A stretch of DNA of 64,000 nucleotides from Hoplostethus atlanticus (taxonomy: Eukaryota > Chordata > Actinopteri > Trachichthyiformes > Trachichthyidae). The stretch lies in assembly GCA_034670405.1 (NCBI GenBank), contig JAXDDX010000004.1, positions 3,144,001 to 3,208,000 of the forward strand. The letters run 5' to 3'. Below are positions 37,801 through 40,800 of the stretch, in pieces (the stretch's first letter is position 1; each line of letters opens with the position of its first letter). The translations under genes and the position numbers were made by a program. The notes below the pieces were generated by a model. It ran no database searches. It was not told the DNA's origin and saw only the letters and a program-made list of their open reading frames with translations.

Positions 37801-40800
37801 AAGCGATTATGCTCACACACACACACACACACGCGCCTGTGAATGCAAAGACAGTGCAACGAGATGCGTATGCAAGCACAAACACGCATGTGCACGTTCA
37901 CACACATAAATACTTGTTGACGGCTAGGACCTGGAGGGGGGCTTAGCAGGAAGAGATGGATTTCTGACTGGTGTCCCACCGCCAAGTCTCCTGACCCTTG
38001 ACCGCAGGCCCGTCTCCACCTCTAGATCAGGTGAGGGGCAGGAAGCTTTACTCTCGGTCAAATAGATGGCGTGAACCGAGGTGTGATTCAGCGTTCGGTG
38101 TCAGACACCATTCAGAGTGGATGGAAGTCATCTGTGCGAGCTTCATAATTAAGACCAGTTGCTTTCTTTAGGCTGGTTTATAATAGCCAGGCATAAATAT
38201 TTATTCCTGGCGGCTGGCGGAGAGGATAAAAATGGTGAGAGTCATAGGTGGAGCTCACCAAACACCCAGCATTCAACGCTCACCCTGTACCGCTAATACC
38301 CCCGAGGACTACCGTGCCAGACTTTGCTGTGGTAGAGATCAAATACGAGGGCCCTTATGTTGCATTTATTGTCTTCAAGTCTTCCATTTTTCCTAATAAA
38401 TGAGTGACAGCTTGAGGTGGGTCTGGGTACTTTAGTAGACTCTTTGTATTTTTCCCCCAGGTCAGAGAGGAGAGGGCTTTAACAGCGATCTAAAAAACGT
38501 TGCAGAGCATATCTAATTGCTTTCATATGCCGTATTATTGGTTGATTTAAATAACGACAGACACCAGGGGCGCTGGGGGGCATCGCCTTTAACCCCCGCG
38601 TGGCCCTGGCCAAGACTGACTGACTGGCTGGCCAACTGGCTCGGTTATTGAGTGGCTAGGCGCCCGTGAGAGCTTACCCCCTGACACAATCAGCGTGGAA
38701 CCCCAAAACAACGTCTGCCTATTACCCCCCAATTGTCCTTCTGATCTTTCGTCAAAGCATTGGAATTTGCTTTTTTTTTGGACTTCACCCTAAGACTTCA
38801 CTCTAAGCGCTCCGGAGACAGACAGAATGAAGATGCTGCTCGCACTGACGGCTCCTTCATCGGTCTTGAAAGGGGAGAGGTTGCGGTGTTATGATGATAC
38901 GTCTGTTAAGGCATGATACAATGTCTGGAAACTGGGAAAAGCTGCTTCGGGCCATCCGAGGTCCTGAGTACACCCACAAACCTCTCTGCATACTGGGGGG
39001 AAAAGTACATGGGATGTGCATTTACATTTAAACTGCTCTGGTGAAAGAAGACATCATACAGTACATAATTAGACTGATTTACAATGAAACGATGACCTAA
39101 GCACTGGAAAACCCAGCCGCGTAGTGTGCAGGTTAACCCTTCATACCCACACCCGAAATTAATGTACTGGTAGATAAAAGAGGGCGTGTCCTACCGGTCC
39201 GATCTCTCTTCAGCTTCCTGATGTCCTTGGCGAGGTCATCAAACTTGACCTGGGCAGCCAGGAAGACGTCTTGAGGCTCAGGCAGAGGGAACACACTCTT
39301 GTCTGTGCCGGCATGCTGGGACAGGGGAACGAGCGGAAAACAATATCAGCATCCTTTCTGTCACGTATGCCTGAGTAACAGATTAAGACTGTAAAATACC
39401 ACACCTGATCGAAATTACGCAGGTAGTAGGACACCACATAATCCACCAGACTGAGGCGATTGTCCTGAGGGAGAAATGACCACCGATTAAGAATAGAATG
39501 CAACTATGCTTTACATGTGTGTATCATTGTGATTTTATGGTATGGGTCTACCCTGCTCTTGACGTCCTTCAGTTTGGGGAGGATCTCCAGTCCGAAGCCA
39601 TCTGCCTGGCCTCTAGTCCTGTTCCCTCCATTCATGTAGTTCCCAAAAGCCAGAACCAGACCCACCACTTCCCGCAAGCTATTGCCCTCTAGCAGCTCCT
39701 GACACACACACACACACACACACACACACACACACACACACACACACACACACACACACACACACACACACACACACACACACACACACACACACACACA
39801 CACACACACACACACACACACACACACACACACGGCCTCTGGGTTAGCTACATCTCTAGGCAGCGTGGTGACACTTCACTTGCTGAATCAAGAATGCGAC
39901 GCGGCGGCGGCCTTACTTTGCAGACATTGGAGACAATCTCCACCTTGCGACGGATGGAGGAGATGCTATCGAGGAATACCGACTGGAAGATGATGCAGTG
40001 GGCCCGGCCCGAGAAGTCGGGAATCTGGGAGAGCTCATAGAGGAACCTGGAAAACAGGAGGGGAGGAGGAGCAGGAGGAGGAGGGGGGTCGAAGAGAATG
40101 GGGTGTGATGTGTTATGACAGAATTAAACAAAATGTCCAACAGGAAGAACTATTTTGGGTCCTTGGCAGGCTGCGCTTCCCCATGCAGGGCGGCTGAGTC
40201 AGTGTTGCTGTTCACAGGCAGGCAGGCAGGCAGCTGATAGTCATGAGTGGTGCTGCTCGGCTGGGTTTGAAAGGTCCACGGGGTCGGGGAGAGGGAAAGC
40301 AGTGAGCGGCGCACAGTGATTGATCAAAGGTAGCTTTGGCCTGATGCGGGACGACTCATGTAAACAGTGCCGTGTCGGAGGGGAGCGGAGCGGTAACATC
40401 CTGTGTGATTAGGCCCGTTGATGGAGGTAGACACTGAGTAGGGATGACTCAGGCAGCGGTAGTGACAGCTCTGGTCAAACATGGAAATAGGCAGGCCAGG
40501 CTAAGCGGCACCGCTGGGACCGGGCCTCGTTAACTGGCCCGGACTACTTAACCCTGACAGGATGGGAACTATGGAGAGACCCGACATCAGTGCACGTGCA
40601 CGGTCATGTTTGCGCACACACACACACACACACACACACACACGCACACACTAGTTTATGGACATTTATATATATCCTTAGCACTGTGAAGATTGTTTTA
40701 TCTATATCCGAGAGCATTCGTGAGGGAAGTAATACAACCGGAGGTACGAAGAGGTAAAACAGGCTGTGGATAAATATTTACTGAGTAACAACCACATTAG

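Follow-up and report, generated by a model that had tools for sequence, protein, structure and literature searches.

fmn1, its neighbours and its second copy

The 64,000-nucleotide stretch of Hoplostethus atlanticus DNA analysed here (hereafter the window) contains fmn1 on its minus strand. The same window contains a DAN-family gene (gremlin-like, E 2e-41), a RhoGAP gene and an actin gene, as recognized by Pfam. We take gremlin to be a neighbour of fmn1 in vertebrates, which fits the assignment of the gene. The exon of interest is a coding exon of 147 nt (39552..39698, minus strand), with 49 codons and phase 0 on both sides, which encodes the GNYMNGG signature of the FH2 core and matches the Pfam FH2 profile at positions 192-239 of 372 (E 5.8e-15). 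Its PDB matches are DAAM1, DIAPH1, INF2, FMNL3 and Bni1. The preceding FH2 exon (39917..40045, minus strand) matches profile positions 149-191 (E 3.9e-6). Pfam analysis of six window fmn1 exons gave FH2 in three and no match at E 0.01 in the other three. The FH2 exons and the gremlin-like, RhoGAP and actin neighbours bear out the fmn1 identity proposed in an earlier note on this DNA, and the length, phase and GNYMN signature that it gave for the exon hold as well.

A second copy of fmn1 is located on contig C11. A tblastn comparison of the window frames with C11:6746001-6796000 gave 59 rows, of which 17 were chosen and inspected as pairs. The 17 matched coding segments of the window (22928..61118, minus strand) run from 61118 to 22928, are all open and are colinear with C11 6755696-6774432. 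The C11 block also matches the gremlin-like, RhoGAP and actin genes of the window, and the two blocks look like duplicates from a genome duplication. Further long AC arrays are present in fmn1 introns of the window at 23297-23414 (about 60 units, imperfect) and 24843-24952 (55 units); these would be UG in the pre-mRNA, and two of the last coding exons matched begin less than 500 nt downstream of them.

Layout of the intron upstream of the FH2 core exon

The intron between the two FH2 exons is 218 nt long (39699..39916, minus strand) with the donor GTAAGG. Tandem Repeats Finder identified within it a perfect (AC)66 on the plus strand (39702..39833), which is (GT)66 on the minus strand, with a period of 2, 66.0 copies and 100% matches. 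The repeat occupies 132 of the 218 nt (61%), in agreement with the share of about 60% estimated earlier. The CAG of the acceptor (39699..39701, minus strand) directly adjoins (GT)66 and sets the same exon start as in the second fmn1 copy. The sequence and coordinates thus confirm the acceptor (GT)66-CAG|GAG on the fmn1 strand. Over the last 38 nt ahead of the AG, the longest pyrimidine run is 2, compared with 3-17 at 22 other fmn1 acceptors of both copies, in a table of 23 acceptors whose boundaries were set by eye and from which exons without a placeable acceptor were omitted. The earlier statement that no pyrimidine tract separates the repeat from the AG is therefore correct. A GT-rich acceptor (GT4) is also found in the window copy at the fmn1 exon near 61118. 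The CAG|GAG at 39696-39701 forms a NAGNAG tandem acceptor that could yield isoforms with or without one Glu. Read-through of the 218-nt intron meets an in-frame TAG, so intron retention does not offer a coding option.

A consensus scan placed a likely branch point just upstream of the repeat, in GCTAAC (39843..39848, minus strand; A at 39844), which lies in a block common to the second fmn1 intron. The CTAAC within it is a full yUnAy match, and its candidate branch A was measured at 145 nt from the acceptor AG, the distance that the earlier note had given for GCTAAC. One further yUnAy match was found in the 218-nt intron, TTGAT at 189 nt. No A occurs among the 137 bases preceding the acceptor AG. 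Any adenosine branch point is thus 138 nt away or farther, and the branch point must be distant unless it is not an adenosine. The next AG upstream begins at a distance of 138 nt from that of the acceptor, which leaves an AG exclusion zone of at least 100 nt. Downstream of CTAAC the intron reads CCAGAGGCC and then (GT)66, and the longest pyrimidine run within the 25 nt preceding the tract is 3. Judged by its sequence, the fmn1 acceptor is of the distant-branch-point type in layout, with a pyrimidine tract at neither end of the putative branch-to-AG interval.

It had been proposed that scanning from the branch point would find the correct site. The repeat indeed contains no AG, which upholds one part of the proposal; however, two AGs lie between the candidate branch A and the repeat, 5 and 7 nt after the A, and the proposal had left them out of account. 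These AGs are probably too close to the branch A for use, and AGs so near a branch point are described as open to bypass (PMC2991248).

Long dinucleotide arrays are error-prone in assemblies, and the tract might accordingly have been collapsed, expanded or misplaced. We regard such an error as very improbable. The flanks of the tract give an intact intron and open exons, although its exact length could still be off; the contig spans 12.7 Mb; and the flank was found once in the assembly, save for the C11 paralogue and three matches of 33-43 bases.

A normally spaced intron in the second copy

The C11 intron at the corresponding exon boundary is 109 nt long and ends in TAACCCAGAATGTGTTTCCCTGTTGAG, and the window intron reads TAACCCAGAGGCC(GT)66CAG. 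The two introns have TAACCCAGA in common. The branch-like A of the C11 copy and its AG are 25 nt apart, separated by TGTGTTTCCCTGTT; in the window copy the same A lies 145 nt from the AG. An alignment of the two introns with the repeat left out reached a score that was matched by 1 of 500 shuffles. The C11 copy also has an AG at +5 after the branch-like A.

Two observations on the second copy concern its FH2 exons. The C11 exon at 6768065-6768211 (L026) carries the FH2 signature GNHMNGG rather than GNYMNGG, and its acceptor is an unusual TTGAG. In the region of C11:6765532 (L082), which corresponds to window 44568, another FH2 exon of the second copy has a GT7 acceptor, and the pyrimidine tract of the window copy is ordinary there. 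The two fmn1 duplicates thus have GT acceptors on different exons.

The next most similar exons are those of L024 and L020, at 74% over 47 and 73% over 44 residues; the two loci are probably copies of fmn2. The acceptor of L024 is pyrimidine-rich, with a longest run of 8. The homologous exon of L020 (the region of C65:2239548) has a GT-rich acceptor, GTGTGCGTGTGTGTGTCTATACCAG, with GT5 and a longest pyrimidine run of 3. Since L020 is also GT-rich, TG-rich sequence at this acceptor is not confined to the window copy. It may represent an old seed that predates the expansion in fmn1.

GT tracts at acceptors across the genome

A search of the 633-Mb assembly for (GT)>=10-CAGGAG found 45 places, 23 on one strand and 22 on the other. 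The tracts are 10-66 units long with a median of 16; that of fmn1 is the longest and the next has 43 units. Open frames of at least 24 codons follow the CAG in 38 of the 45 places, and these were scanned with Pfam at E 0.001 (the seven unscanned places are L001, L005, L048, L050, L056, L065 and L068). One frame was scanned per place, generally the longest, with a second frame for L067 and L077; the sole frame scanned for L044 was picked by eye and is not its longest. Six of the 38 gave Pfam matches: FH2 (fmn1), His_Phos_2 (GT14), NIPSNAP (GT27), an adaptor medium subunit (GT28), a secretin-family 7tm domain (GT14) and NHS (GT18). The secretin-family match, at L067, was obtained in a non-longest frame chosen by eye and scores 19.5 bits, below the Pfam cut-off of 20.6, and the longest frame of that place is blank. 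The L053 match, at 23.7 bits, is barely above its cut-off of 23.6.

The same test applied to controls, CAGGAG sites without a GT tract, gave no Pfam match in 40. These controls were 40 of the 79 eligible CAGGAG sites (109 in total) in the other 44 loci, and at least two of them fall in likely exons of the test set. With the window excluded and L067 kept, the comparison is 5 of 37 against 0 of 40 (Fisher p 0.022). Under a strict longest-frame rule there are 5 positives in 38 (the longest frame of L044 being unscanned), and excluding the window leaves 4 of 37 against 0 of 40 (p 0.049), in what is a small comparison. Five further places, L006, L044, L060, L070 and L072, are exon-like by eye and have no Pfam match at 0.001. 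A TAAC motif occurs within 30 nt before the tract in 4 of 11 other loci inspected (L006, L053, L058 and L077). Replacing CAGGAG with CTGGAG in the genome-wide search gave 31 places; however, reversed-pattern controls gave 49 and 65, and thus the raw counts of 45 and 31 are not evidence by themselves. By these sequence comparisons, GT tracts adjoining acceptors appear to recur in this genome, with fmn1 as an extreme rather than an isolated case. A repeat-rich genome has been described in the Atlantic cod (PMC5241972).

Comparison with the AC/GT introns of fish

GT repeats at splice acceptors of fish are already known, and the fmn1 acceptor is a variant of these known GT-tract acceptors. Among the titles of the open-licence papers listed, none refers to a GT-only fish acceptor of this length, which is weak evidence of absence. 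The (AC)m-(GT)n introns of fish were reportedly described by Lin et al. in 2016. Introns of this kind are known from fish and lamprey; their AC and GT tracts at opposite ends pair and permit splicing without U2AF2 (PMC7404189, PMC9198270). The fmn1 intron resembles them in that a GT tract at its 3' end, the correct end for such a bridge, replaces the ordinary pyrimidine tract. An apparent example of the class is also present in this genome: at the NHS-like locus L077 (C273 near 105834), an intron of about 100 nt has (AC)16 directly behind the apparent donor, ends in (GT)18-CAG, and looks like a textbook AC/GT intron.

However, the fmn1 intron differs in having no AC tract, and its GT tract is longer than those of the other 44 places. 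The 400 nt that precede the GT tract contain no (AC)>=5, and the 1.5 kb before the AG contain no (AC)>=6. Within the window, the fmn1 strand has its nearest (AC)>=10 at 47410-47445, an (AC)18 that is 7.6 kb upstream and in another intron. Without an AC tract, the pairing that defines the class cannot form within the intron, and an AC/GT hairpin inside the fmn1 intron was ruled out on this ground. That paired AC and GT ends join the fmn1 splice sites and make U2AF2 dispensable is therefore scarcely credible.

At one class of coding acceptors in this genome, the polypyrimidine tract might also be functionally replaced by (GT)n that has no AC partner, and fmn1 would mark the upper length limit. 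We put this forward tentatively, as a proposition with the odds somewhat against it. L063 and L070, two of the other likely acceptors, may have such a partner, as each has an (AC)>=24 tract 0.6-1.0 kb upstream that might belong to the same intron. If the GT-only class is real, it would provide a natural test of how far a repeat free of A and of AG can push the branch point.

A tolerated acceptor on an overgrown intron as the favoured reading

The reading that we favour, by a modest degree of confidence, is that the FH2 exon has a tolerated, probably weakened but mostly used acceptor, on an intron overgrown by a microsatellite in one of the two fmn1 duplicates. In the simplest history, the GT microsatellite would have grown within a short TG-rich pyrimidine tract of the window copy, the direction of change being suggested by the comparison with C11. 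The old branch point in the TAACCC block would have been retained, and the branch-to-AG distance would have increased from about 25 to about 145 nt. As (GT)n contains neither A nor AG, its growth creates neither a competing adenosine branch point nor a competing acceptor. SF1 and U2 would then act at CTAAC as a distant branch point, and after scanning or looping of the spacer, splicing would take the first AG past the repeat. The alternating U residues of the tract could act as a weak stand-in for the pyrimidine tract. The exon would be mostly included, perhaps at below-normal efficiency, and the UG tract would be open to binding by TDP-43 or CELF. Against this reading, the low pyrimidine content and the long branch-to-AG distance both predict weak recognition of the acceptor.

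Structure in the tract itself might help the distant acceptor to function. In particular, the UG repeats could fold into left-handed pUG quadruplexes, of 12 repeats each and with room for up to five, which would shorten the effective distance between the branch and the AG. The fold needs 12 UG repeats, and 24 or more give double folds; UG is also reportedly the only dinucleotide repeat that, at 12 units or more, is enriched in the vicinity of human splice sites (PMC12276007). In some branch-distant introns of fission yeast, RNA structure possibly spans the gap (PMC9508853). We nevertheless consider it improbable that such folds shorten the distance in fmn1. Co-transcriptional splicing is fast beside a pUG folding half-life of at least 13 min. 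This half-life is the value given for folding in vitro (PMC12276007). Watson-Crick folding of 39640-39930 was no better than that of shuffles (z 1.45, with 187 of 200 as good), in a program whose model does not include pUG quadruplexes. A Watson-Crick structure across the tract was dropped as a candidate, shuffles being as good.

UG tracts, distant branch points and exon skipping

A different outcome would be a cassette exon whose skipping depends on repeat length, in which TDP-43 or a similar protein on the UG tract blocks U2AF and SF1, and longer alleles give more skipping and an FH2-defective isoform. The exon is in frame and could be skipped as such. The parallel that the earlier note drew with CFTR exon 9 is apt in that a UG tract adjoins the acceptor in both. 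By this likeness, a UG tract directly upstream of a coding acceptor, TDP-43 binding would be expected in fmn1. The CFTR exon 9 tract has about 9-13 UG units. The fmn1 tract differs in having 66 units and no T tract between the repeat and the AG. In CFTR, the most thoroughly studied example, the UG tract is repressive: TDP-43 binding and skipping of exon 9 are both promoted when the UG tract is longer and the U tract shorter (PMC12171016). According to a preprint on human cortex, TARDBP binding follows GT length, and the 100 bp upstream of exons are enriched for fine-mapped splice-associated repeats (PMC13174678).

The literature on distant branch points points in the same direction. The usual human branch-to-AG spacing is given as about 29 nt (PMC9508853). 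Every distant-branch-point exon that had been established by experiment in 2006 was alternatively spliced (Gooding et al. 2006, PMC1431707), and skipping in human is reported to increase with the branch-to-AG distance (PMC1431707, PMC2991248). The fmn1 intron resembles the introns of those exons in its AG-free stretch of more than 100 nt with a likely branch point beyond it. It differs in that theirs have the branch point and the pyrimidine tract together upstream, whereas the fmn1 intron has no such tract there. This literature shifts the odds from a tolerated acceptor toward length-tuned skipping.

Even so, a length-dependent cassette seems to us rather unlikely. No second allele of the tract was found in the assembly, its flank being unique save for the C11 paralogue and the three short matches. 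Skipping would remove 49 residues from the middle of FH2, which is a loss and not an obvious regulatory product. Moreover, in the second fmn1 copy the acceptor of the corresponding exon is normally spaced. Length-tuned regulation of the fmn1 exon is a possible hypothesis, to which the distant-branch-point literature lends general weight by analogy.

Implications for splicing of fmn1

If the exon is spliced normally, as the preferred reading of a tolerated acceptor would have it, a vertebrate acceptor works without a pyrimidine run, with a branch point at ~145 nt and without AC compensation. This would bear on the real need for U2AF2 binding. If the exon is not spliced normally, the intron would hold a fast-mutating splice switch in one of the two fmn1 copies. 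In both cases the second fmn1 copy, with its normal spacing, provides an internal control in the same genome.
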